The notes below the pieces were generated by a model. The model was not told the DNA's origin and did not search any database. It saw only the letters and a program-made list of their open reading frames with translations. From Phenylobacterium sp. (GTDB lineage Bacteria; Pseudomonadota; Alphaproteobacteria; Caulobacterales; Caulobacteraceae), in NCBI RefSeq assembly GCF_016793285.1, contig NZ_JAEUMO010000119.1, positions 1-46,482 of the forward strand: a stretch of DNA of 46,482 nucleotides. Direction: 5' to 3'. Made by a program: the position numbers and the translations under genes. Each line of letters begins with the position of its first letter. Within the stretch, counting starts at the first letter, position 1. Below are positions 32,057 through 42,998 of this stretch, in pieces.

Positions 32057-33271
32057 CTAGCCGAGCAGCCGTTCGGTCAGGTCGCCGCGCATGCAGTGGT
32101 TGGAACTCATCGAGGCGCCGTAGCCGCCGGTGTTCAGGAAGGCGATGCGGTCGCCGCCGGCCATCGGCGGCATGCGGTGACTGCGGGCCCAGACGTCCAG
32201 CGCCTCGTTGATGTTGCCCGACACGGTCACCGGCCGCCAGGCGCGTTCGTCGAACGTCGACGGGACGCAGGCGATCGGCTCGCAGGGGCGGTCGTAGTGC
32301 GCCGGCTCCGGATGCAGGTTGAAGCCGCCGTTCACCTGCACGAACTCCACGTCGCGCTTCACCTCCACGTCGGTCGCCTCCAGCACCAGGAGGCCGGCGT
32401 CCTTGACGATGTAGTCGCCCGGCTCGACCGCCAGCGTCACGTCGCGGCCGGCCAGCCGCCGCTTCAGCACCGCCGCCCAGCGCCCCAGGTCCAGCGGCGC
32501 GTCGGTCGCCGTCTGCGGCAGGCCCAGGCCGCCGCCGATGTTCACCGTCGTCGCGTCGGGCAGGTCGTCCAGGAACGACAGACCCTCGGCGATGGCGGCC
32601 TCCCAGCTCGCGAGCTGGGGGTCGAGCCAGCCGCAGCCGACGTGGAAGTGCAGCGTCCGGATCGTCAGCCCATGCGCCCGCGCCGCCTCCAGCGCCGCGC
32701 CCCACTGCTCGCGGTAGATGCCGAACTTGGTGACGTCCGCGCCCGCGTAGATCAGCCGCTCGCTGTAGCCGACCCCGCGGGCGGGGTTCACGCGCACGCC
32801 GATGGCGCGGCCCGGCGCGCGCTCGCCGATGCGGCGGATCATGCCGACGGTGTCGCAGTTGATGTGCAGGTCCGGCTGGGCGAGCAGCCGGTCGAGATCG
32901 CGGTCCGAGACGCCGGTGCCGGTGAAGCTGATGTCCCTCGCCGCGAACCCGCTGCCCAGCGCCCTGTCCATCTCGTTCGGCGAGCAGATGTCGAGGCCGC
33001 ACTGCCCGCGCAGGCGCGCCAGCAGCGGCTCGAAGCGGTTGCACTTCATCGCGTAGTAGACCCGCCCCGTCCGGCCCGTCTGCGCCAGCGCCGCCTTCAG
33101 CCGCGCCAGGTTCGCCGCCACCCGCGCGGCGCTGTAGAGGAAGAGCGGCCCGCCCGCCTCGTCGTAGGCGCCCGCCACATCGCAGCCCGCCAGGTGCAGC
33201 CGGCCGTCCACGTAGCCGAGGTCGTCCCGCACCCACCACGGCGGCGCCGCCGCAGCGCGCGGCGCGCTCAC
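32057..33271 (-). CDS. Type III PLP-dependent decarboxylase (ornithine/diaminopimelate decarboxylase fold)
   Basis: This 404-residue enzyme has an alanine-racemase-like barrel and a C-terminal beta domain. Lys76 (YYAMKCN) would bind [15 protein letters not shown], the phosphate loop NIGGGLGLP and [11 protein letters not shown] follow, and the end has [15 protein letters not shown]. It is close to neither classical LysA nor eukaryotic-type ornithine decarboxylase in the last region, so the amino acid decarboxylated is uncertain. The GTG at 33269-33271 overlaps the SET gene stop by 4 bp, which fixes the start and couples the two. The pair suggests a small-molecule pathway rather than housekeeping lysine synthesis. 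Confidence 0.9.
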
Positions 33272-33714
33272 GACAGGCCCTTGAGGTGGGCTTGCCCCTC
33301 GACGTTCGGAGGCTCCGCGCGGCCGGTGACCCAGCGGCGGCACTGCGGCGCGCCGCAGTGGCAGGCGAATTGCCTGAACAGCCGGTCCTCGGTGGCCGCG
33401 TAGTCGATGGTCAGCAGTTCGCCCGCCGGCATGTCCTTCAGCGCCACCAGTTGGAATGCGCGCATGTCGAGCCGGCAGTTCGGGGCGCACGCGTGGCTGA
33501 GATAGCCGATGAACTCGGTGTCGGCGATGTGGTTGGTCTCGTCGACCTGCAGGCTGTGCTGGCTGATCTCGGGACCGATCTCGCCGGTGAAGACGTGCAG
33601 CACCTCGCCCCGGCTGCGCGCGACGATCGTCTCGACGCCCAGGCCCCGCGCGTCGTCGGGCCGGCAAATCCGCAAGGTCTCCGCCGGCGACCGCGCCACC
33701 GCTTCGCTCCGCAC
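33268..33714 (-). CDS. SET-domain methyltransferase with post-SET cysteines
   Basis: This 148-residue protein is a compact SET domain that would methylate an amine, usually lysine, with S-adenosylmethionine. GRGLGVETI-type N-terminal strands lead to [17 protein letters not shown] (residues 68-83), matching the NHSCxPN pseudoknot motif, then [13 protein letters not shown] (98-110). A post-SET zinc motif follows at C118, C120 and C125 (ACHCGAPQC). No chromatin-targeting domain is present. The GTG at 33714 has GGAGG upstream. Bacterial SET genes are uncommon, and this one is coupled to a PLP decarboxylase, so the substrate may be a free amino acid or polyamine as well as a protein. Confidence 0.9.
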
Positions 33715-33762: not shown

Positions 33763-34167
33763 CTAAAGTCCTACGGCCTTCGAAAGCCGCAGGTGGTTGC
33801 GGCCTGGCCGCCGCTCATAGGCCACGCCGTCCATCAGCTTCATGACCATGTGGATGCCGAGCCCGCCGACGTGGCGATGCTCGAGTTCCGCGCCGGTATC
33901 GGGCTCGGGCGCGCAGGTCGGATCGAAGGCCGGTCCGTCGTCGCCGACTTCGACGGTCACGCTTCCGTCGGCCACCCGCGCGGCCACTTCGACCGTCGTC
34001 GCGCCGCCGTGGCCGAAGGCGTTGGTCACCACCTCGTCGAGCGCCACGCTCACCGCCGCGATCGCCGCCGCCGGCACGCCGCGCGCCGACAGGCCGGACT
34101 CGATGTCGTCCAGCAGCGCCGGGAGGGCCTCGCGGCCGCCGAGCGTGCGGGAGATGTCCGGAAGCAT
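33763..34167 (-). CDS. RsbW-like serine kinase / anti-sigma regulatory ATPase
   Basis: This 134-residue GHKL ATPase would phosphorylate a STAS antagonist and hold a sigma factor or other target. The N box is ALDEVVTNAFGHG, with catalytic Glu45 and Asn49. The G1 box is VGDDGPAFDP (Asp77) and the G2 box is HVGGLGIHMVMKLMD. The length suits a stand-alone kinase. It is divergent from the STAS gene across 90 bp. The partner sigma factor is not in the window, so the switch may control another protein. Confidence 0.92.
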   Translation of the reverse strand: MLPDISRTLGGREALPALLDDIESGLSARGVPAAAIAAVSVALDEVVTNAFGHGGATTVEVAARVADGSVTVEVGDDGPAFDPTCAPEPDTGAELEHRHVGGLGIHMVMKLMDGVAYERRPGRNHLRLSKAVGL

Positions 34168-34257
34168 GCCGGGCCCCTGATGACCGATTTCCGAGCTTAG
34201 CCGCGTGGAAAATTAGCTCAATCTCCCCGATAATCGCGCGACGGCTGGAGAGCGTTG

Positions 34258-34590
34258 ATGCACATCGGTGAAGAAACCCGCGGCGGCACGCTGGTGATGG
34301 CGCCGTCCGGCCGCCTCGATTCGGGCTCGGCGGGCGTGCTCGAGGCCGTGCTGCCGGGCCGTGTGCAGACCCACGCCAAGGTCGTGCTCACCCTCGCCGA
34401 GGTGCCCTATGTCTCCTCCGCGGGCCTGCGCGTGCTGCTGATCGGGGCCAAGGCGGCGAAGGCCCAGGGACACCGGCTGGTGCTGACGGGCCTCTCGGAG
34501 TCGGTGCGCGAAGTGTTCGACATCTCGGGGTTCAGCACGATCTTCGCCATCGAGCCCGACCTCGACTCAGCTCTGGCCGCCCTCGCGTGA
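34258..34590 (+). CDS. STAS-domain anti-sigma factor antagonist (RsbV-like)
   Basis: This 110-residue STAS protein would bind the RsbW-like kinase when unphosphorylated and free its target. The phosphorylation motif is PYVSSAGLRVLLIGAKAA; Ser54 is the expected site, and the usual preceding Asp is Ser53 here. The rest (GTLVMAPSGRLDSGSAGVLE; LVLTGLSESVREVFDISGF) is standard. I chose the ATG at 34258 over a TTG three bases earlier; GGAG lies 8 bases upstream. Its last 24 bp overlap the end of the pseudo-RsbU gene on the other strand. RsbU at 39954 is the obvious phosphatase for it. Confidence 0.93.
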   Translation: MHIGEETRGGTLVMAPSGRLDSGSAGVLEAVLPGRVQTHAKVVLTLAEVPYVSSAGLRVLLIGAKAAKAQGHRLVLTGLSESVREVFDISGFSTIFAIEPDLDSALAALA

Positions 34591-35802
34591 GGGCCTGAGC
34601 ACCGCGACCATCCCCGTCGCCTCCAGAAGCGCGGCCAGGTCGTCCAGCACCGCTTCGGGCGCGAGGCCCGGCGTCTGCCGGGCATAGGCCGCCGCGCGGG
34701 CGTCGTTGTCGCCGTCCAGCAGGCCCAGGGTCTGCGGCGGCGGGCTCCCCGCGGTCCAGGCCGTCCAGGCGACGCGGTCGAGCCCGAACGCCGCGCGGCC
34801 CTGCTCCGCCCGCGCCGCCGGATCGCCGTCCAGCAGCGCCCGCTCGAAGAAGCCCCGCGCCGCCAGCGCCATCGCCAGCGCCTCCGCCGCCCCGTCGCCC
34901 GCGGCTTCGCCCAGCGCCAGCGCCGCGCGGTCCTCCACGACGCACAGCGCCGCGAACGCCCCCGCCGGCGCCGCCCCCAGCGCGCGGACCGCTACCCTCA
35001 CGCCCGCCGCCGTCGCCACGACCGGCGGCAGGGCCTCGGCGCGATAGGCCGCCACCGCCACCGCCTCCGTCCGTCGACGGTCGTTCAGCGCCAGTTCGCG
35101 CGCGCTGCGCGACAGCCGCCCCGAGACGCTGGTCCGCATCAGCCGCACGGCGTTGGCGAGGTCCCGCGTCTCGCGGATCGACAGCGCCGCGGCCTCCGCC
35201 GCCGCGTCGTCCGACGCGATCAACGCGCTGTTGACCGCAAGCTCGCGGTCGATCCGCCCGGCGACCGACAGAGCCAGCGCCAGGCCCACGGCGCCCGCGC
35301 CCGCCACGACGCCGGCGATGATGCGCCGCAGCTTCGCGAGCCGGGCGTAGAGCGGCTCGGCGTCGATCTCGGCGATCACGTAGCGGCCCCGTTCGGCCGG
35401 GGCGACGGCGGTCGCGATGCGGCGGCCGTCGAGGGCGGTCCGCACCGGCAGCACGGTCGCCGCGGTCGGCATGCCGATCCGGCGCTTCGACACGTGCGGC
35501 GCACGCCCGGCGATGGCCGTCTCGGTCCCTTCCGGGTCCACGACGTACAGGCCCTCCAGCCCTTCGATGCTGGCGGCCGCTTCGGCGAGGGCGGCGGCCC
35601 GGCGCGGATCGGCCAGCGTCACGGCGAGGTCGTCGGAGCCGGCGGCGAAGGCCGCCGTCGTGACCGCGGCGGCGATCGCCTGTCCCTCCAGCCCGCGTCG
35701 CGCCTCGGTCTTCTCCCAGACGTAGAGCAGCGCGCCGTTGACCGCCGCGAGTGCGAGGAACAGCGGCACGACCAGCAGGAGGAAGGTGCGCCGCACGGTC
35801 AT
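34567..35802 (-). CDS. Membrane sensor with degenerate PP2C/SpoIIE-like domain (pseudo-RsbU)
   Basis: This 411-residue protein has a membrane helix (TFLLLVVPLFLALAAVNGAL), a periplasmic domain (about 30-170), a second helix (IIAGVVAGAGAVGLALAL) and a HAMP-like linker. The C-terminal region aligns with the PP2C domain of the RsbU at 39954. RsbU has GGDLYD with metal Asp340; here it is PAGAFA with Ala282. RsbU has GDVSGKG with Asp358; here it is GEAAGDG with Glu299. The later DG and DD motifs are not recognisable. It should not be an active metal phosphatase and may instead sense, titrate or scaffold. Its ATG overlaps the stop of the cNMP-like gene (ATGA). The PP2C kinship is read by eye and should be tested. 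Confidence 0.75.
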   Translation of the reverse strand: MTVRRTFLLLVVPLFLALAAVNGALLYVWEKTEARRGLEGQAIAAAVTTAAFAAGSDDLAVTLADPRRAAALAEAAASIEGLEGLYVVDPEGTETAIAGRAPHVSKRRIGMPTAATVLPVRTALDGRRIATAVAPAERGRYVIAEIDAEPLYARLAKLRRIIAGVVAGAGAVGLALALSVAGRIDRELAVNSALIASDDAAAEAAALSIRETRDLANAVRLMRTSVSGRLSRSARELALNDRRRTEAVAVAAYRAEALPPVVATAAGVRVAVRALGAAPAGAFAALCVVEDRAALALGEAAGDGAAEALAMALAARGFFERALLDGDPAARAEQGRAAFGLDRVAWTAWTAGSPPPQTLGLLDGDNDARAAAYARQTPGLAPEAVLDDLAALLEATGMVAVLRPSREGGQS

Positions 35803-36188
35803 GCGCCGGCCTTCCCGGCCATGTCGCGCAGGCCGAGGACGAACTCCGGGCACTCGCGCGCGATCGTGAAGACGTGCGGCTTGGCGATCACGAGCGCCTC
35901 CAGGCCCTCCGGTCCGGCGACGTAGTCCCGGGCGGCGGCGAGGCCGAAGAGCAGGCCCGCGGCGTCGAACACCGGCGGGGCGGCGCCGGCGCCGGTTCGC
36001 GCGCCGCCCGAGAGCCGCGCCACCAGCACGTCGGCCACCTGTCCGGCCGGCAGGATCACCCCGCCTGCGGGGTAGCTGCGCAGCCGCGCGTGGTCCGCGA
36101 TCAGCAGCAGTTCGGCGTCGTCCAGACGCGAGAACGGCTCCAGCGCCCGGAGCGCGAACAGCGTGCGGACGACCCCGGCGCCGATCAT
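35799..36188 (-). CDS. Degenerate cyclic-nucleotide-binding-like protein
   Basis: This 129-residue protein resembles the Crp beta-barrel: LEPFSRLDDAELLLIADHAR, then YPAGGVILPAGQVADVLVARL. The phosphate-binding cassette should read FGE...R-A; here it is LLFGLAAARDY followed by GPEGLEALV, without the Glu and the Arg-Ala pair. Binding of cAMP or cGMP is therefore doubtful. There is no helix-turn-helix. It overlaps the sensor gene upstream and pseudo-RsbU downstream by 4 bp each, so the three are made together. Confidence 0.7.
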   Translation of the reverse strand: MIGAGVVRTLFALRALEPFSRLDDAELLLIADHARLRSYPAGGVILPAGQVADVLVARLSGGARTGAGAAPPVFDAAGLLFGLAAARDYVAGPEGLEALVIAKPHVFTIARECPEFVLGLRDMAGKAGA

Positions 36189-37210
36189 CGCGGGCCCGCC
36201 AGCATTTCGGTGTCGGCCGCCAGTTCAGGCCGCCCGGCGATCCGCCGCGCCAGCACCGCCCGCGCGCGGGCCTGCAACAGGGCTTCGACGCCGTCGCCGC
36301 CCTCCGCTGCGCCGAGCGCCTGGCGGATCGCCTCGACGCCGCGCGCCCGATCCTCGGCCAGGGTGCGCGCGCGGGCGGCCCGCATCGCGGCCACCAGCTC
36401 ATCGGCGAGCCCGGCCAGCGCCGCGCGCAGCCGCACCACCTCGCGCGGCGCTCGGCGTTCCACCGGCGGGGCGCGGTCGCCGGTGGCGATGCGCAGCGCA
36501 TCGGCCTTCAGCCCCTCGATCGGCTGCGCCACCCGGCGCAGGATCGCCAGGATCACCAGCGCGCTCGCCAGCAAGGACGCGAGGCCGATCATCGCGCTCG
36601 CCAGGACCGCGTTCTGGGTCGCCACCTGGATCACCGAGATGTTCACGTCGGCGCCCGCCGTCGCGGTGATCCGCCCCTCGGCCCCGCGCACCGGCGCGGC
36701 GGCGGTCTTCAGGAGGCCCCACTGCTCCTGGTACTGGATCGGCGAGGCATAGATCGCCCCGGTCGTCTGCGTGGCCTTCAGGCCGGCCAGGGTGTCGTCG
36801 GGTAGGTCGTCGGGCGAACCGATGGTCGAGTGCTCCTCGCCCTCGGTCGCGTCCAGCACGTAGAGCACGTCCCGCGGCCCGCCGATGGCCTGCGTGTAGA
36901 GGTAAGTCAGCCCCAGCTCGCGCCGGATGCGCCGCATCGGCTCGACGTTGCGCCGATAGCCCTCGCCGGCCTCGATGGCCGCCGCGTCGGCGTCGGGCCT
37001 CGCCATCGCCAGCAGGGCGTCGTGATCGACCGGGTCGATCAGGACGCCCGTGAGCGCGCTCACCGTCGCTAGCCTGCGCGAGAAGCCGTCGAGGATGGTG
37101 TCGTACAGTCGCACGTAGACCAGCGCGCCCAGCGCCACCGCCACGATCACGATGGCCGGGGTGAGGGTGCGCCAGAGCAGCGCCTGGATCGGGGTTCCGT
37201 CAGGCCGCAT
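36185..37210 (-). CDS. Membrane sensor protein with HAMP-like linker and no output domain
   Basis: This 341-residue protein has an N-terminal helix (ALLWRTLTPAIVIVAVALGA), a periplasmic domain of about 160 residues, a second helix (ASAMIGLASLLASALVILAI) and a HAMP-like segment (RVAQPIEGLKADALRIATGD). An Ala/Arg-rich helical tail follows. The periplasmic part (LGLTYLYTQAIGG; RDVLYVLDATEGEE) resembles the sensor domain of the RsbU at 39954 (ADLAYVYTYMKFGD). No kinase, cyclase or phosphatase domain follows. It overlaps NTT-HEAT by 11 bp and the cNMP-like gene by 4 bp. It could pass a signal through direct contact with pseudo-RsbU. Confidence 0.8.
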   Translation of the reverse strand: MRPDGTPIQALLWRTLTPAIVIVAVALGALVYVRLYDTILDGFSRRLATVSALTGVLIDPVDHDALLAMARPDADAAAIEAGEGYRRNVEPMRRIRRELGLTYLYTQAIGGPRDVLYVLDATEGEEHSTIGSPDDLPDDTLAGLKATQTTGAIYASPIQYQEQWGLLKTAAAPVRGAEGRITATAGADVNISVIQVATQNAVLASAMIGLASLLASALVILAILRRVAQPIEGLKADALRIATGDRAPPVERRAPREVVRLRAALAGLADELVAAMRAARARTLAEDRARGVEAIRQALGAAEGGDGVEALLQARARAVLARRIAGRPELAADTEMLAGPR

Positions 37211-39830
37211 AGCTGCGTCCGTCGCGCGCCTTCAGCATCGCGAGCGCCAGGTCCGGGTAGCGCGAAGCGACCTCGTCGATATCGGCCCGCGAGAGCCACC
37301 ACGACCCGCCGGCCACCGCTAGCTCGGTCGGCCGCCGGCCCTGCGCCGCGGGCGTCGCACGCCCGGCGAGCGCGGCCAGCGCGCCAAGCGTGGCGGGCTC
37401 GAAGTCCGGCTGCGCCGTCAGCGCGCCGACCAGGTCGACCAGTGTCGGCCCCGCCGGCGCCAGGCCCAGGAGAATCGAGATGCTGCGGCGCAGAGCCGGC
37501 GCCATGTCCGGGCCGAGCGCCGGACGAAGCCGCGCGGCCAGCGCTTCGGGCGGCAGCAGGCGGGTCATGGCCTGCGCCGCTGCGGCGGCCTCGAAGGTCC
37601 GGCCGCTCGCCACGGCCTCGTCGCAGACCTGCAACAGGTCGATCGCCGGGGCCTGCCCCGGATCCCGCCGCGCCACCAGCGGCTCCAGCCGCCGCCAGGT
37701 CGCGTGGTCGACGCCGCTCGCGATGGCCTCGATGGCATTGCCGCGCACCTTCGGGTTGGCCGAGTGCAGCGAAACGATCAGGAGGTCGAAGTCGGGAAGC
37801 TGACCGCCCAGCGCCAGCAGCTCCAGCACGAGGTCGACCGACGATCCGATGCGCTCGCGGCAGGCCCGGGCGAGGAGCCGCGCGGCGGCGTCGGTCCCGG
37901 CGCCGGCCTCGAGCGCCTGGGCGGACTCCAGCCTGCGCGCCGTCGCCGCCAGTTCCTCGCGCACCAGCCGGTCGAGCTGCGACAGGAACTGCGCCTGGCT
38001 GAGCGCCGAGAGCGCCCGCGCCGCCAGGGCCCGCGCCCGATAGGGCAGTTCGTCGGAACCCAGCGCCTGCGCCAGCCGCGGGATCGCCGCCTCACCCAAT
38101 CCGGCCAGCAGGTCCTCGGTGATCCTGATTTCCCGCGGGCTGAGCTCCGCCGCCGCCGGCAGGATCTGCGGGATCGCCTCGACGTCGCCGATCGCGGCCA
38201 GCAGCTTCAGGATCGTCTCGCGGCTGGCCCGGTCCATCCGCGGCAGGTGGGCGACCAGCGGCGCCACCAGGTGGATGTCGCCGCGGCCCGCGACGCTGGC
38301 GAGCGAACTCACCGCGTAGCGGCGGACCGACGGCGAGGGATCGCCGAGCTTCACGGCGAACATGTCGGTCGCGGCCGAGATTTCGGAGTCGATCTGCGCC
38401 GGCGCCTGCGAGGTGAGGGTGCGGCTCTGCAACAGGCCCCGCGCCGCGGCCGCCGCGCCCGAGTCCGGCTCGCGGGTCTTGGCCTCCAGCAGGGCCACGG
38501 CGGCCTCGTCGAACCGCGGCGTGCGCGCCGCCGGGTCGCCGAAGTGGAGCCAGCCGCGGCGCATGTTGGCCTCCATGGCGGCCGGATAGACGTGGCGCAA
38601 CGCCACCACGACGCCGATCAGCGCCGCACCGAGCAGCACGCCCACGCCCGCGAGTTCGCGCGCGTCGAGCGCCTTGGCGGCCAGCAGCAGGAAGCCGCCC
38701 GCGACCAGGCTGGCCAGCGGCTCGGCCAGCCCCTCGACCATCGTGCGGAACGGCCGCTTCGCTGCCGACGGCGTCGCGTTGAACAGCAGGTTCTGGTTGT
38801 TGTATTCGATCGAGGTCAGCACGCCGTGATAGGCGAAGAAGGCCGCCAGCGCCGCGACCTCGCCCCCCGCCAGGAAGAAGTAGGCGAAGACCGCGAAGTA
38901 GGTCGCCGGCAGGATCAGCGCGACGTTCCTCACCCCCGCCCGCCCCACCAGCCGGTTGAAGACGAAGAGGCAGACGATCAGGTTGAAGACGCTGGTCGCC
39001 GCATAGAGCCCGCCGAACAGGCTGGCGAGTTCGGCTTCGCTCCGCCCCTTCTGCAGCACCGACGAATACTGGAACTCGATGAGGTTGGTGAGCAGCAGCG
39101 TCACGAACAGCGTCGCCGTCAGCATCAGGGCGTAGGGCGAGCCCCGGAACGTCCGCAAGACCAGGAGCAGTTGCTGGGCCACGCTGCGGCTCTCGGCGTC
39201 GAGGTCGGCGTCGCTGTCGGCGATCCGGACGAACCGACGGCGCAGCATGATCGCCACCGGCGCCGTCAGGCCCGCGATCGCCGCCCAGGCCGCCAGGAAC
39301 CCCGGCAGCGATACGACGCCCGCCAGCCCGGAGACGATCAGCGATCCGAGGGTGACGCCCAGGGCGCAGAAGGCGGCGAACAGCGGGAACAGCCGCTTGG
39401 CGTCCTGGATGTCGAAGAACGCGTCCGTGAAGTTCCAGAACAGAGTGTAGAGTCCAATGTACCACATCGCGAGGTACAGTTTCAGCGCGTAGTAGATCGC
39501 GACCTGCTCGCGCGGCCCCGTCTCCAGCAGCCAGGCGAAGGCGAGTCCGCCCGCCGCCAGCAGGACCAGCGTCACGTCCACCACCCGGTCGAACGGGAAG
39601 CGCACCTGGAGGAACGAGAAGAGCGCGGTGTAGACGACCATCACGACCGGCGTGAGCAGGAAGATCACCGGCAGCTTCGCCGGCCCAACATGCGTCAGGA
39701 ACGCCGCGTCGCCGGCCGCGAAGCCGATACCCAGCCCGGTCTGCAGCATCAGCCCGAACAGGCCGAACCGGAGGAGCTTGCCCCACTCCCCGCGCTCGAC
39801 CCGGAAGAGGCGGTTCAGCACCTCGGCCAC
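37200..39830 (-). CDS. NTT-type nucleotide-transporter-like membrane domain fused to HEAT repeats
   Basis: This 876-residue protein has about 12 membrane segments in residues 1-420 of the ADP/ATP translocase (Npt/Tlc) type: FFDIQDAKRLFPLFAAFCALG, shortened here to its core IQDAKRLFPLF, and TSIEYNNQNLLFNATPSAAK are distinctive. Residues about 440-876 are helical HEAT-like repeats (PSPSVRRYAVSSLASVAGRG; IGDVEAIPQILPAAAELSP; NPKVRGNAIEAIASGVDH). True NTTs exchange nucleotides in obligate intracellular bacteria; the HEAT-fused type occurs in free-living bacteria and its role is unknown. The start is a GTG at 39828-39830 with AGGGGGA upstream. It heads the operon of sensor, cNMP-like and pseudo-RsbU genes. 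Confidence 0.88.
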   Translation of the reverse strand: MAEVLNRLFRVERGEWGKLLRFGLFGLMLQTGLGIGFAAGDAAFLTHVGPAKLPVIFLLTPVVMVVYTALFSFLQVRFPFDRVVDVTLVLLAAGGLAFAWLLETGPREQVAIYYALKLYLAMWYIGLYTLFWNFTDAFFDIQDAKRLFPLFAAFCALGVTLGSLIVSGLAGVVSLPGFLAAWAAIAGLTAPVAIMLRRRFVRIADSDADLDAESRSVAQQLLLVLRTFRGSPYALMLTATLFVTLLLTNLIEFQYSSVLQKGRSEAELASLFGGLYAATSVFNLIVCLFVFNRLVGRAGVRNVALILPATYFAVFAYFFLAGGEVAALAAFFAYHGVLTSIEYNNQNLLFNATPSAAKRPFRTMVEGLAEPLASLVAGGFLLLAAKALDARELAGVGVLLGAALIGVVVALRHVYPAAMEANMRRGWLHFGDPAARTPRFDEAAVALLEAKTREPDSGAAAAARGLLQSRTLTSQAPAQIDSEISAATDMFAVKLGDPSPSVRRYAVSSLASVAGRGDIHLVAPLVAHLPRMDRASRETILKLLAAIGDVEAIPQILPAAAELSPREIRITEDLLAGLGEAAIPRLAQALGSDELPYRARALAARALSALSQAQFLSQLDRLVREELAATARRLESAQALEAGAGTDAAARLLARACRERIGSSVDLVLELLALGGQLPDFDLLIVSLHSANPKVRGNAIEAIASGVDHATWRRLEPLVARRDPGQAPAIDLLQVCDEAVASGRTFEAAAAAQAMTRLLPPEALAARLRPALGPDMAPALRRSISILLGLAPAGPTLVDLVGALTAQPDFEPATLGALAALAGRATPAAQGRRPTELAVAGGSWWLSRADIDEVASRYPDLALAMLKARDGRSYAA

Positions 39831-39839
39831 GCGTTGTCC

Positions 39840-39932
39840 ATCCCCCTGGTCTGATCCCCCTGGCCGCGAATCGCCTCAACTGGCGCGGGAGCAACGCTTC
39901 CTTATAGACTAGCTTCCTATCCCCCAGGGGGA
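39840..39932. promoter_or_regulatory. Repeats in the NTT-HEAT/RsbU divergent promoter
   Basis: ATCCCCCTGG occurs at 39840-39849 and 39854-39863, and ATCCCCCAGG at 39919-39928. The last is part of a palindrome, TCCCCCAGGGGGA (39920-39932). The first copy also supplies the ribosome-binding site of NTT-HEAT on the minus strand, so not every copy need be an operator. Confidence 0.35.
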
Positions 39933-39953
39933 GAGGGCGGGCGGCTGATCGGA

Positions 39954-41585
39954 ATGGTCGACGAGAGCGCAGAGGTCGAGCGCCGGCGCCTGCGCTTCGG
40001 ACTGAAGGCGCAGCTCCTGCTGCTGCTGTTCGTGCTCAACCTGGTGGCCGCGTCGGTCTACTCGGCCGTGCTCTTCAACATCGACAGGGCCGCCATCCTC
40101 GACGGCATCGACGGGCGACTGCGCACCGCGGTCCTGGCCGTGAAGGAGATGGCCGACGACGGCTATCACGCCCGCATCACCGGTCCCGACTCGATCCCCT
40201 GGCAGGAATACGACCGGCTGCAATACCGGCTCTCGCGCTTCGCCGAGGGGGCCGACCTCGCCTACGTCTACACCTACATGAAGTTCGGCGATCAGATTCG
40301 GACCGTGTCGACCAGCGCCACGCGCGACGAGATCCAGAACCGTAAGCAGGTGAAGTTCTTCACCCTCTACGACACCGCCCCCAAGCCGCTCTACGCCAGC
40401 TTCGCCGACGGCAAGGTCCGCTTCGACGAGTACCGCGACAGCTTCGGCCGCTTCCGTTCGATCTACCTGCCGGTCCGCGGCGTCGACGACCGGACCTACG
40501 TGGTCGGCGCCGACATCGACCTGGCCTTCGTGCGCGAACAGACCACGAAGGCGCTGGAGACCTCGATCCTGATCGGGGCGGGCATGTTCGCGCTTTCCAT
40601 GGCGCTGGGCTGGCTCCTGGTCGACCGCATCGTCCAGCCGCTGGCGCGGCTCACCCTCTTCACCCGCAACATGGGGCAGCGGAACTTCCAGCCCGACGAG
40701 AGCGAAGCCGCGGCCATGCAGCGGATCGGCACGACCCGCTCGGACGAGGTCGGTAGCCTGGCCGAGGCCATGACCGCCATGATCTCGCGGCTCCAGCGCT
40801 ACCTGGTCGAGATGGAGCAGGCGACCGCGGCGCGCGAGCGGGTCGAGGGCGAACTCTCGGCGGCGCGCGACATCCAGGTGGGCATGCTGCCCCGCCGCTT
40901 CCCGCCGTTCCCGGCCCGGCGCGACATCGACATCTACGCCCTGCTGGAATCGGCCAAACAGGTGGGCGGCGACCTCTACGACTACGTGCTGGTCGACGAG
41001 CACCGCCTGTTCTTCGTGGTGGGCGACGTCTCGGGCAAGGGCGTGCCGGCGGCGCTCTTCATGGCCATGACCACCACGCTGTTCAAAGCCACGGCGCTGA
41101 GCGCGGCGACCATCGGCGACGTGATGACCCGCGTGAACGTGGAGCTGTCCCGCGACAACGCCGCCCAGATGTTCGTGACCGCCTTCGCCGGCGTCCTCGA
41201 CCTGCGCACCGGCCGCGTCGACTACGCCGATGGGGGCCACGAGCCGCCCTTCCTGCGCCGCGCCGGCGGCGCGATCACCCGGCTGCCGAAGGCCAGGGGC
41301 CTGGCGCTGGGCGTGGTCGAGGAGGCGGAGTTCGAAACCGCGAGCTGCCAGCTCGGCGCCGGCGACGCGCTGATCCTCTTCACCGACGGCGTCTCGGAGG
41401 CCACCAACGCCGCCGAGGACCTCTACACCATCGCCCGCATCGAGGCCGCGCTCTCCACCGCCCGCCCGGACTCCAGCGCCCGCGGTATCGCCGAGGGCCT
41501 GGCCGAAGACGTCCGCGTCTTCGTGGGCGAGGCGCCGCAGGCCGACGACGTGGCCATCCTGGTGGTGCGGTACGAAGGCGCGTAG
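39954..41585 (+). CDS. Membrane-bound RsbU-type PP2C serine phosphatase with periplasmic sensor and HAMP domain
   Basis: This 543-residue protein has a membrane helix near residues 20-40 (LLLLLFVLNLVAASVYSAVL), a periplasmic sensor domain (about 45-195), a second helix (ILIGAGMFALSMALGWLLV), and a HAMP domain (RIVQPLARLTLFTRNMGQRN). A coiled-coil linker (LSAARDIQVGMLPRRFPPF) and a SpoIIE-type PP2C domain follow. All metal and catalytic motifs are present: Asp340 (GGDLYD), Asp358 (GDVSGKG), FTDGVSEATN and DDVAILVVRY. It should dephosphorylate the STAS protein encoded 5.4 kb away in response to a periplasmic signal. It is divergent from NTT-HEAT. The ATG at 39954 has only a weak ribosome-binding site. 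Confidence 0.95.
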   Translation: MVDESAEVERRRLRFGLKAQLLLLLFVLNLVAASVYSAVLFNIDRAAILDGIDGRLRTAVLAVKEMADDGYHARITGPDSIPWQEYDRLQYRLSRFAEGADLAYVYTYMKFGDQIRTVSTSATRDEIQNRKQVKFFTLYDTAPKPLYASFADGKVRFDEYRDSFGRFRSIYLPVRGVDDRTYVVGADIDLAFVREQTTKALETSILIGAGMFALSMALGWLLVDRIVQPLARLTLFTRNMGQRNFQPDESEAAAMQRIGTTRSDEVGSLAEAMTAMISRLQRYLVEMEQATAARERVEGELSAARDIQVGMLPRRFPPFPARRDIDIYALLESAKQVGGDLYDYVLVDEHRLFFVVGDVSGKGVPAALFMAMTTTLFKATALSAATIGDVMTRVNVELSRDNAAQMFVTAFAGVLDLRTGRVDYADGGHEPPFLRRAGGAITRLPKARGLALGVVEEAEFETASCQLGAGDALILFTDGVSEATNAAEDLYTIARIEAALSTARPDSSARGIAEGLAEDVRVFVGEAPQADDVAILVVRYEGA

Positions 41586-41631: not shown

Positions 41632-42216
41632 CTAGCGCGGCCGGCGGATCATCGGATGGAGGCCCGGGAAGTCGCCCGGCTGGACGAAACCCATCACCTC
41701 GAAGCCGAAGCGTTCGTAGAGCGGCACGTTCCTGGGGTTCGAACTCTCCAGGTAGGCGGTGGCGCCCGCTTCGTCGATGCGCCGGAGCGACTCCTTCAGC
41801 ACCGCCGAGCCCCAGCCACGGCCCTGTTGCGCAGGGTCGACGCCGATCATCGCCAGATACCAATGCGGCTCGGCCGGGTGGTACTGCTCCATGGCGTCGC
41901 CCACCTCGCCCAGGGTGGGCAGCTTCTCCTCGCGCGCCATCTCGCCGACCACCCCGAGCATGGAGTCTCGGTCCGGGCCGACTCCGGGGGGCAGCCACAA
42001 CGCCGCCGCCGCGCCATCCTCGGCAAGCCAGGCGGAGCCCAGGTCCACCGCCGCGCCGCCCATGCCGCCCGCGAACCGGTGGAACCCGCGCAGGAGCTTG
42101 TCCGGCGTGTCGAGCACGAAACGCAGGCACGGGTCGCCGGCGAAGGCGAGCATCAGGGTGTCGAGGACGGCCGCCTTGTCGTCCGTCGCCGCCAGTCGGA
42201 TCTTGTGTCGGTTCAT
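41632..42216 (-). CDS. GNAT-family N-acetyltransferase
   Basis: This 194-residue protein has the GNAT acetyl-CoA site GVDPAQQGRGWGSAVLKESL, followed by AYLESSNPRNVPLYERFGFE, the classical motif A and B pair. The N-terminal half (MLAFAGDPCLRFVLD; LWLPPGVGPD) is typical of small-molecule acetyltransferases in this group. The ATG at 42214-42216 overlaps the upstream cyclase-like gene stop by 4 bp (ATGA), so the two are coupled. The acceptor is unknown. Confidence 0.92.
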   Translation of the reverse strand: MNRHKIRLAATDDKAAVLDTLMLAFAGDPCLRFVLDTPDKLLRGFHRFAGGMGGAAVDLGSAWLAEDGAAAALWLPPGVGPDRDSMLGVVGEMAREEKLPTLGEVGDAMEQYHPAEPHWYLAMIGVDPAQQGRGWGSAVLKESLRRIDEAGATAYLESSNPRNVPLYERFGFEVMGFVQPGDFPGLHPMIRRPR

Positions 42217-42998
42217 CCCAGCCTCACCGGCGGCCGTTCGCGGCCGTGCACTTTCTTCAGATACAAGCGCATGTCCTCGATGGTCGCGGCAAGCTCGCCG
42301 GCGCCGGCCGGCTCGGAGGCCGTGGCCTTCGCCAGCACCGGATCCTGCTCGACCTCCCAGGGCAGGAACCGCATCGCGCCGCCGGCCTCGAGCATCCAGA
42401 CGATGGGGTAGGAGCGGCCGAACATGACCCCCTTCAGCGCCTCGCGGCCCATCAGGTAGAAAGCGGCCGTCGCGGCGTTCTCCGCGCCCAGCACCGCCTC
42501 CAGCACGTCGAGCGAGACCACCATCACGCCCGGCCGCGCGAACTTGGCGATCCGGAAGCCCAGGTCGATGTCGGGCCCGATGAAGTCGACATGCTCGCCC
42601 GAGCCGCTCGACAGTTCCGGGATCTCGATCTCGATGTTCTGGTCGTCGAATTCCGCCAGCCAGGCCGTGCCCTTGAGCCTGAGCGGCAACTGCTGGAAGT
42701 GCCGCTCCTCGTAGAGCGCCATGGTCTTCAGGACGGACGTCAGGATCGTCGTCAGCTCCTCGGCCCCGCCCGGCTCGCAGACGAACACCACCTCGTCGCC
42801 CATCACCTTCCAGACCGAGATGGCCGGCGTCGCGTCGTCCTCCAGGAAGGCGTGGCCGATCTGGCCCGCGACCATCAGCGGGAAGCTCGTGAAGAAGGCC
42901 TTGAAGATGCCCAGCCACGCCTCGGCGCCCTGGCCGGTGAAGCGCGCCTTGAACTCGGTCGAGCCCACCATGTCGACGGACAGGAACAGCCGCGCCAT
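42213..42998 (-). CDS. Class III adenylate/guanylate cyclase-like domain protein
   Basis: This 261-residue protein is a cytoplasmic class III cyclase-like domain. Metal ligands are Asp9 (LSVDMVGST) and Asp68 (VMGDEVVF). The segment GPDIDLGFRIAKFARPGVMV aligns with the last conserved helix, where active cyclases have N-x3-R; Asn is not evident but the Arg is present. An insert (about 95-135) separates the halves. Activity is uncertain; it may be a sensor or an allosteric partner. I chose the ATG at 42996-42998 because earlier TTG or GTG codons lack family-like sequence. It is coupled to the GNAT gene. Confidence 0.8.
   Translation of the reverse strand: MARLFLSVDMVGSTEFKARFTGQGAEAWLGIFKAFFTSFPLMVAGQIGHAFLEDDATPAISVWKVMGDEVVFVCEPGGAEELTTILTSVLKTMALYEERHFQQLPLRLKGTAWLAEFDDQNIEIEIPELSSGSGEHVDFIGPDIDLGFRIAKFARPGVMVVSLDVLEAVLGAENAATAAFYLMGREALKGVMFGRSYPIVWMLEAGGAMRFLPWEVEQDPVLAKATASEPAGAGELAATIEDMRLYLKKVHGRERPPVRLG

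Follow-up and report, generated by a model that had tools for sequence, protein, structure and literature searches.

A conserved locus linking NTT-HEAT membrane proteins to Rsb-type partner-switching genes

Described systems and the Phenylobacterium locus

Fusions of an NTT-type membrane domain to HEAT repeats, with a cyclic-nucleotide-binding domain (cNBD) either fused or encoded directly downstream, were described by Major, Embley and Williams in 2017 (PMC5381601). The parts of that paper available to us report such proteins as widespread in bacteria, and present also in oomycetes and Chlamydia, with a function that was then unknown; we found no function reported for them since in the open-access PMC literature. 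Here we analyse a contig of Phenylobacterium sp. (NZ_JAEUMO010000119.1; 46,482 nucleotides, the whole of which we call the window) in which a block at positions 33,763–41,585 places an NTT-HEAT gene in one locus with Rsb-type genes. Like Rsb partner-switching systems, the block holds an active-looking PP2C phosphatase, a STAS protein of the phosphorylatable type and a GHKL kinase; unlike them, it holds an extra four-gene membrane module made partly of inactive Rsb-type parts. The locus is real, conserved and functionally suggestive, and our results suggest a variant of partner switching that has not been described before, with a mechanism that is still unproven.

A comparable arrangement is found in Chlamydia trachomatis, where RsbU (CT588) is accompanied by a membrane paralogue, CT589, whose PP2C domain lacks the metal residues (PMC4552016, in its available parts). 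As in the window, a membrane RsbU shares its region with a membrane paralogue lacking metal residues, which in Chlamydia is adjacent by locus number, whereas RsbW (ct549) and the RsbVs (ct424 and ct765) lie elsewhere by locus number, unlike in the window block. According to the accessible text of the respective sources, CT590 is a hypothetical protein of 954 amino acids (PMC1403754), a transposon mutant in CT590 yields fewer progeny (PMC6686042) and C. trachomatis has one uncharacterised NTT-HEAT fusion (PMC5381601); our guess is that CT590 is this fusion. A further parallel comes from Bacillus subtilis, where RsbU is activated by dimerisation of a coiled-coil linker, as models also predict for HAMP-linked relatives (PMC12143880). 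Such dimerisation offers a physical route by which paralogues carrying HAMP and linker segments could control RsbU, although the activating partner there is RsbT and the available parts of the paper mention no pseudo-RsbU.

All seven genes of the block are present, in the layout given by an original prediction made from the sequence alone. From left to right they encode an RsbW-type kinase (33763–34167, minus strand), a STAS anti-anti-sigma-type protein (34255–34590, plus), a probable pseudo-RsbU (34567–35802, minus), a cNBD-like protein (35799–36188, minus), an output-less sensor (36185–37210, minus), the NTT-HEAT protein (37200–39830, minus) and an RsbU-type phosphatase (39954–41585, plus). 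The four-gene operon reads NTT-HEAT, sensor, cNBD-like, pseudo-RsbU on the minus strand from 39830 down to 34567, and the predicted overlaps of 4–11 bp are present (NTT/sensor 11 bp, sensor/cNBD 4 bp, cNBD/pseudo-RsbU 4 bp). The STAS gene ends inside the 3' end of the pseudo-RsbU gene, in a tail-to-tail overlap of 24 bp. By gene coordinates, compared across loci, RsbU and the NTT operon diverge from a common gap of 123 bp (39831–39953), and STAS and RsbW from one of 87 bp (34168–34254).

The original prediction knew of no earlier case of the combination. The pairing of NTT-HEAT with a downstream cNBD gene had been described already, whereas for the combination of an NTT-HEAT operon with a partner switch we found no paper in the open-access PMC literature. 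The window protein fits the published family in having an NTT domain fused to HEAT repeats and a cNBD-like domain just downstream, as a separate gene; no sensor, pseudo-phosphatase, RsbU, STAS, RsbW, decarboxylase or SET gene is mentioned in the available text of the 2017 description (PMC5381601).

Conservation of the locus

Related loci (numbered with the prefix L) were found through the NTT domain, and our conservation table comprises 61 of them: 33 alphaproteobacterial, 10 further ones of the same kind and 18 outside the clade. L030, L048 and L051 are the same contigs as L012, L011 and L013 and were excluded from it. In an NTT tree of 57 rows, from which L046, L056, L059 and L081 were excluded for length (L056 and L081, from a single genome, probably represent opposite ends of one NTT gene), the window-type NTT domains form one clade of 39 rows with support 100/99; its joining to the remote NTT-HEATs is weak, with long branches. 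The row closest to the window is a Phenylobacterium metagenome-assembled genome (L021; 93% identity over the NTT domain).

The sensor, cNBD-like and pseudo-RsbU genes are present in 33/33 alphaproteobacterial loci and a SpoIIE phosphatase (RsbU) in 32/33, the sole exception, L046, being a 4-kb fragment. STAS and RsbW genes accompany them in 30/33; they are missing from L021 and L046, which are cut by contig ends, and from L026. The same fraction, 30/33, holds for the SET and decarboxylase genes and for a cyclase-like gene, which are described below. Carriers belong to Phenylobacterium, another member of the Caulobacteraceae, Novosphingobium, Sphingopyxis, Sphingomonas and Rhizorhabdus, and a complete block is found on an 850-kb plasmid of Sphingomonas paeninsulae. 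Linkage in several genera, the test named in the original prediction, is thus observed. Gene order is constant despite median per-gene identities of only 36–66% (30–32 alphaproteobacterial loci). Of 41 loci with starts picked by script, the three repeated contigs among them, 32 show a sensor/cNBD overlap of exactly 4 bp and 33 a cNBD/pseudo-RsbU overlap of that length; because this exact spacing recurs in most loci, we consider the overlaps to be beyond chance.

NTT-HEAT relatives of the window kind are rare. Searches found relatives in 7/99 genomes of the family at E≤1e-3 (four strong, own included), 3/299 of the order (own included), 8/385 of the class (own alone strong) and 5/398 of the Pseudomonadota (two close, own included). 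The seven other class-level matches, at 21–26% identity, lie in open frames of 451–495 amino acids, too short for a HEAT arm, and were rejected. The family of a Sphingomonas carrier gave 2/139 (carrier included), the Verrucomicrobiota 5/240 and the cyanobacterial phylum 9/146 (each three close, centre included), and plasmids 1/72,556 records. A scan of genome contigs returned 112 pattern matches, of which 37 were confirmed, at 36 loci. When 100 Phenylobacterium genomes were searched with pseudo-RsbU, 40 matched, 14 of them strongly, and all 14 have the NTT gene on the same contig, in one case as an end piece; the matches in the other 26, weak and mostly in the HAMP region, were dropped.

The four-gene core recurs in Verrucomicrobiota and in the cyanobacterial phylum. 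It is whole in seven of the ten non-alphaproteobacterial clade loci, the other three (L059, L080 and L081) being truncated by contig ends. RsbU is found in 2/10 (L052, immediately after pseudo-RsbU, and L074) and STAS with RsbW in 1/10 (L074), several contigs being short, and a decarboxylase with an S-adenosylmethionine (SAM) methyltransferase in 3/10 (L052, L074 and L079). The most compelling single locus is L074 (Verrucomicrobiota), which carries on one strand STAS, an isoamylase-like gene, STAS, RsbW, a decarboxylase-methyltransferase fusion, NTT-HEAT, sensor, cNBD-like, pseudo-RsbU and RsbU, with 4-bp overlaps running from NTT through RsbU. In the cyanobacterial locus L079 the order is methyltransferase, sensor, cNBD-like, pseudo-RsbU, NTT and decarboxylase, followed by the contig end.

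At the thresholds used, sensor, cNBD gene, pseudo-RsbU, SpoIIE, STAS and RsbW are absent from the 18 loci outside the clade, some of which lie on short contigs. Most of the sequences behind the STAS and RsbW profiles belong to this clade, and the methyltransferase profile was made from the very loci L052, L074 and L079; at remote loci all three profiles are therefore weak. Since none of the 18 loci holds such genes at these thresholds, NTT-HEAT proteins in general are not tied to partner switching; the accessory genes beside NTT-HEAT are restricted to one clade in the present set, unlike NTT-HEAT fusions at large. The original prediction had conceded that it would fail if NTT-HEAT usually occurs without a partner switch, and this is so for the protein family at large but not for this operon: the window-type clade is mostly tied to partner switching, less so outside the alphaproteobacteria. 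A SET gene is present in 4/18 of the outside loci (L082 and L083 being near-identical) and a decarboxylase in 2/18. Two candidates were discarded here, a 'decarboxylase' by L075 that has the helical-bundle domains of arginine decarboxylase and a 'sensor' by L077 in which HAMP is accompanied by HisKA and HATPase_c domains. At L094 (11605–13497, plus strand) genes for a PP2C phosphatase (Pfam SpoIIE 31.5 bits, above the cut-off of 25) and for an FHA-class III cyclase diverge from the remote NTT-HEAT gene, which is followed by decarboxylase and SET genes. At L077 (7083–13141, minus strand) genes for a HAMP histidine kinase and an ABC substrate-binding protein precede a remote NTT-HEAT gene, an arrangement that may represent another kind of receptor pairing.

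Reading the NTT/RsbU and STAS/RsbW intergenic regions across loci revealed no clear common motif. A stress-sigma promoter pattern, GGAA-N14-19-CGTT, matches upstream of the window NTT gene; counting the three duplicate loci, it occurs in only 3/34 NTT/RsbU regions, where shuffled sequences give a mean of 0.68 and a maximum of 3, and in 0/32 STAS/RsbW regions, and the idea was dropped because the first count is within the shuffle maximum and the second is nil. Separately, the STAS/RsbW gap of the window and its alphaproteobacterial counterparts contains a recurrent stretch around TTTCCAC (the 7-mer is in 14/29 loci), often trailed by GATTAAGCT-like letters and perhaps a promoter.

Domains and residues of the encoded proteins

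The three partner-switch proteins appear, by their motifs, to retain their working residues, in line with the active RsbU–RsbV–RsbW core of the original prediction. RsbU combines a periplasmic sensor, HAMP (22.7 bits, cut-off 25) and a PP2C/SpoIIE domain (168 bits). In an alignment of 18 sequences (A4), D340 and D358 are invariant and D478, D531 and D532 are at least 90% conserved; we take these five to be the metal residues, so that the PP2C metal site would be in place. The STAS protein (STAS 61.5 bits; TIGR00377 over its cut-off; start at TTG 34255 or ATG 34258) has the motif SSAGL in 32/33 family rows, duplicates included, the exception reading MASAGL, and would thus keep a phosphorylatable serine. 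In RsbW (HATPase_c_2 85.6 bits) the GHKL ATP site is likewise recognisable, with GGLG[ILV] in 33/33 rows and the N-box pattern in 27/33.

The NTT-HEAT protein matches HEAT at 24.1 bits (cut-off 23.5) and TLC at 19.1 bits, below that model's own cut-off of 21, and the profile of its NTT domain matches solved ADP,ATP carriers (9j3n, 1.1e-17; 9j3j, 3.6e-14). A fused C-terminal cNBD is whole in L052, L054, L055 and L056, whereas the six alphaproteobacterial sequences in the alignment are without its barrel; the C-terminus of the window protein looks like a remnant of such a domain. In the canonical ATP/ADP translocase four charged residues are required for nucleotide transport (PMC10654386, in its accessible parts). 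In NTT-HEAT, the Lys of RDTKD and the Glu of AELWG face uncharged residues, the Lys in an alignment of only 6.4 bits, and the Glu of EVTWKS is retained as E252. We take these motifs to contain K155, E245 and E385, three of the four charged residues.

The sensor is a membrane protein whose periplasmic domain is that of RsbU (hhalign probability 99, E 1.6e-18). HAMP, at 15.8 bits below cut-off in the window copy, is found in 21/22 family members; the only other Pfam hit of the window copy is at chance level and nothing catalytic was recognised, as expected of the output-less sensor first predicted. A C-terminal PP2C remnant was considered and found unsupported (hhalign probability 7 and 2). The sensors of three Verrucomicrobia (L053–L055) and of Leptolyngbya bear an insert, with repeat-type Pfam matches above cut-off in Leptolyngbya only. 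In the Sphingopyxis metagenome-assembled genome L038 the sensor and cNBD-like protein share a single open frame, which may reflect a genuine gene fusion or an error of assembly.

The cNBD-like protein of the window has no Pfam match at E≤1, and PF00027 is detected in four other members among the 16 of its family. The family profile matches cGMP-kinase cNBDs in the PDB (E 9e-22), which indicates a cNBD fold at the sequence level, and the Gly-Glu and Arg of the phosphate-binding cassette are unconserved in the alignment of 16 sequences. The positions of these residues are those we presume for the cassette. The predicted degenerate cyclic-nucleotide module is thereby upheld; the suggestion that the complex reads a nucleotide is not, given this cassette and two uncharged carrier positions, one of them in a weak alignment.

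Pseudo-RsbU, with a membrane anchor, an ectodomain, a HAMP-like linker and a PP2C-like domain without metal site, is probably an eroded and dead RsbU-type phosphatase. The window copy has no Pfam match at E≤1. Against a 30-sequence SpoIIE profile the C-terminal domain scores 34.4 in hhalign (E 2.1e-4, probability 46), with controls from four other families and a reversed profile at 12.0–14.0 (E 0.2–0.5). The alignment is in register with SpoIIE motifs (VVGRISGKG in L079 versus VVGDVSGKG in window RsbU), and the first metal Asp is gone in 25/26 members, L056 keeping it, and the second in 26/26.

Three linked genes were overlooked in the original parts list, which was otherwise correct for its seven genes: a SET gene (or a methyltransferase gene), a pyridoxal phosphate (PLP)-dependent decarboxylase gene and a cyclase-like gene. 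The small SET-domain protein (33268–33714, minus strand; SET 27.1 bits) is encoded downstream of RsbW on the same strand. The decarboxylase (32057–33232, minus strand) is of the ornithine/diaminopimelate type (NCBIfam lysA 193 bits, cut-off 297.9), its start being placed by codon usage in a frame that is open further upstream; it is not a member of the exosortase-associated family (TIGR03099 139.5 versus a cut-off of 478.45). In L104, the plasmid copy that carries an annotation, the SET gene overlaps both RsbW and the decarboxylase gene by 4 bp, and in L164 (4049–5829) SET and decarboxylase are inverted relative to RsbW and are still neighbours. Near RsbU, the cyclase-like gene (42213–42998, minus strand; start by codon usage, frame open to 43058) has the motifs SVDMVGST ... 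KVMGDEV and no Pfam or NCBIfam match. Its motifs, including the motif-like Asp 29 and Asp 88 (longer-frame numbering), are invariant in 10/10 sequences, and its best PDB profile match is 1ybt at an E of only 0.022. Between this gene and RsbU lies a short gene (41632–42216, minus strand) without Pfam match.

In 17 chosen NTT-HEAT genomes, a SET gene was found in 10 and lies at the NTT-HEAT locus in seven of these, six of which hold there the sole SET match of the genome; in G738, G740 and G996 it lies elsewhere. The seven include remote NTT-HEATs without a partner switch (L082–L084 and L094). The association of NTT-HEAT with SET, and sometimes decarboxylase, is therefore broader than its tie to partner switching.

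Other neighbours were seen in particular copies. A porin gene of the Gcw_chp/TorF type, possibly a further member of the block in sphingomonads, lies upstream of the cyclase-like gene in L104 (8738–9385, plus strand; Pfam-tested) and, by eye, in L031 and L037. L052 (4438–7868) has acyl-carrier and thioesterase domains and a seeming AMP-ligase fragment upstream of decarboxylase, methyltransferase and NTT, which hint at a small-molecule pathway. In the Verrucomicrobia L053 (16854–19278) and L054 (16877–22844, minus strand) a class III aminotransferase gene, Pfam-tested in L054, and, by eye, nonribosomal peptide synthetase-like genes are convergent with the core operon.

A proposed input module and competing explanations

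Direct observations are which genes are present, the constancy of their order, the homologies of the encoded domains (moderate in the case of pseudo-RsbU) and the loss of catalytic residues. From the parts and their linkage we infer a complex, its ligand, its effect on RsbU and an output target, and we give about even chances to the proposal that the locus encodes one signalling system, an RsbU–STAS–RsbW partner switch with a dedicated membrane input module encoded in the four-gene operon. STAS would receive a phosphate from RsbW at the conserved serine, and membrane-bound RsbU would remove it. NTT-HEAT would respond to the ligand in the manner of a transport-type receptor and relay its conformation through the HEAT arm, which would make the contact. 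The activity of RsbU would be set by the output-less sensor and pseudo-RsbU, which by way of HAMP and linker helices would either pair with it or compete with it. Both are natural candidates for pairing with RsbU or displacing it, the sensor having the ectodomain type and HAMP of RsbU but no output, and pseudo-RsbU, as a probable dead RsbU, a HAMP-like linker and a metal-free PP2C domain. The cNBD-like protein may serve as a scaffold rather than as a cAMP receptor. As ligand, a small amine or amino-acid derivative, tied to the decarboxylase and SET/methyltransferase genes, is more likely than a nucleotide.

Several results weigh against this proposal. In a further departure from Rsb systems, no sigma factor is encoded by the 21 Pfam-scanned genes among the window's 28 other predicted genes, and the target of RsbW was thus not found there; in L104 a sigma-factor gene lies with FecR and TonB-receptor genes 2.4 kb from RsbU. 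L026 retains RsbU and has no STAS, RsbW, SET or decarboxylase gene though 5.4 kb follow. L053–L056 and L079 have the core without RsbU, STAS or RsbW within the contig stretches covered, which in L054 take in roughly 10 kb on the upstream side and 6 kb on the downstream side and in L053, L055, L056 and L079 extend less far on one side. The genomes that contain L054, L055, L056 and L079 do have SpoIIE genes at other places, one of these genes (in G996) with an RsbU-like sensor, so that a distant partner for these cores is possible but unproved. The PP2C assignment of pseudo-RsbU is moderate at the level of sequence: a narrower RsbU profile gives an hhalign probability of only 16, Pfam SpoIIE matches 0/26 members, and its ectodomain shows no clear match to that of RsbU (probability 30). 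These values, together with the SpoIIE-profile alignment and the lost metal Asp residues, are why we speak of a probable dead RsbU; of the dead RsbU first predicted, the loss of the metal site holds and the homology is moderate only. Finally, pairwise distances track those of NTT in part (r from 0.41 for the decarboxylase to 0.82 for pseudo-RsbU, without a background control), and the conserved order could reflect transfer of an island, the locus being patchy within the family of the Sphingomonas carrier (2/139, carrier included).

That the genes merely co-travel on a mobile island, with unrelated functions, nevertheless seems very improbable. The patchy distribution (2/139 genomes; 14 strong of 100) and the copy on a plasmid would fit, but 4-bp overlaps are maintained across phyla, the same gene sets recur in different arrangements (L052, L074 and L079) and in L164 SET and decarboxylase are inverted yet adjacent. 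We also think it unlikely that NTT-HEAT is a true nucleotide transporter or receptor, with the cyclase-like neighbour and the cNBD forming a cyclic-nucleotide circuit that feeds the switch, which is close to the original idea. The homology of NTT to ADP,ATP carriers, the cyclase-like gene in 30/33 alphaproteobacterial loci, the FHA-containing class III cyclase close to the remote NTT-HEAT gene in L094 and the fused cNBD retained in several relatives speak for such a circuit. However, the RDTKD Lys (in the 6.4-bit alignment) and the AELWG Glu face uncharged residues, even though E252 is kept, the cNBD cassette is degenerate, the fused barrel is missing from the six alphaproteobacterial sequences aligned, and the assignment of the neighbour as a cyclase is weak (E 0.022).

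The wide association of NTT-HEAT with SET and decarboxylase genes makes a metabolite the better candidate for the signal than a nucleotide; for the same reason a metabolite-transport explanation stays a serious rival. Here the core would be a regulated transporter for a product or substrate of the decarboxylase and of the methyltransferase or SET enzyme, the switch would control only the expression or activity of the cluster, and the sensor, cNBD-like protein and pseudo-RsbU would gate the transporter and not act on RsbU. We hold this possible, if somewhat unlikely. It agrees with the decarboxylase and SAM methyltransferase that join the core in three loci (L052, L074 and L079), of which two show no STAS/RsbW, with the decarboxylase and SET genes beside the remote NTT-HEAT of L094 and the SET genes beside those of L082–L084, where no STAS/RsbW is found at threshold, and with the position of SET at the NTT-HEAT locus in seven of the 10 SET-bearing genomes. 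Set against this, the sensor and probably pseudo-RsbU are made of RsbU-type parts, pointing to RsbU as their partner, and neither enzyme is seen in the contig stretches covered in L053–L056. More speculatively, and with a good deal of doubt, the proposed input module may be one case of a widespread transceptor-type partner switch, in which NTT-HEAT, a former transporter, senses a metabolite that the linked decarboxylase and methyltransferase produce and, in a hetero-assembly with the dead RsbU and the output-less sensor, drives the active RsbU, the chlamydial region of RsbU, dead RsbU and CT590 being a relative.

A clade operon that combines NTT-HEAT with an RsbU-type sensor and a probable pseudo-phosphatase gives NTT-HEAT proteins a concrete and testable role, as the input to a protein switch, and environmental carriers such as Phenylobacterium and Novosphingobium make that role accessible to experiment. 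If the proposal is correct, a partner switch would be governed by a protein resembling a transporter together with an inactive copy of the switch's own phosphatase, and should the chlamydial region be related to this system, CT589 and CT590 would gain a function.

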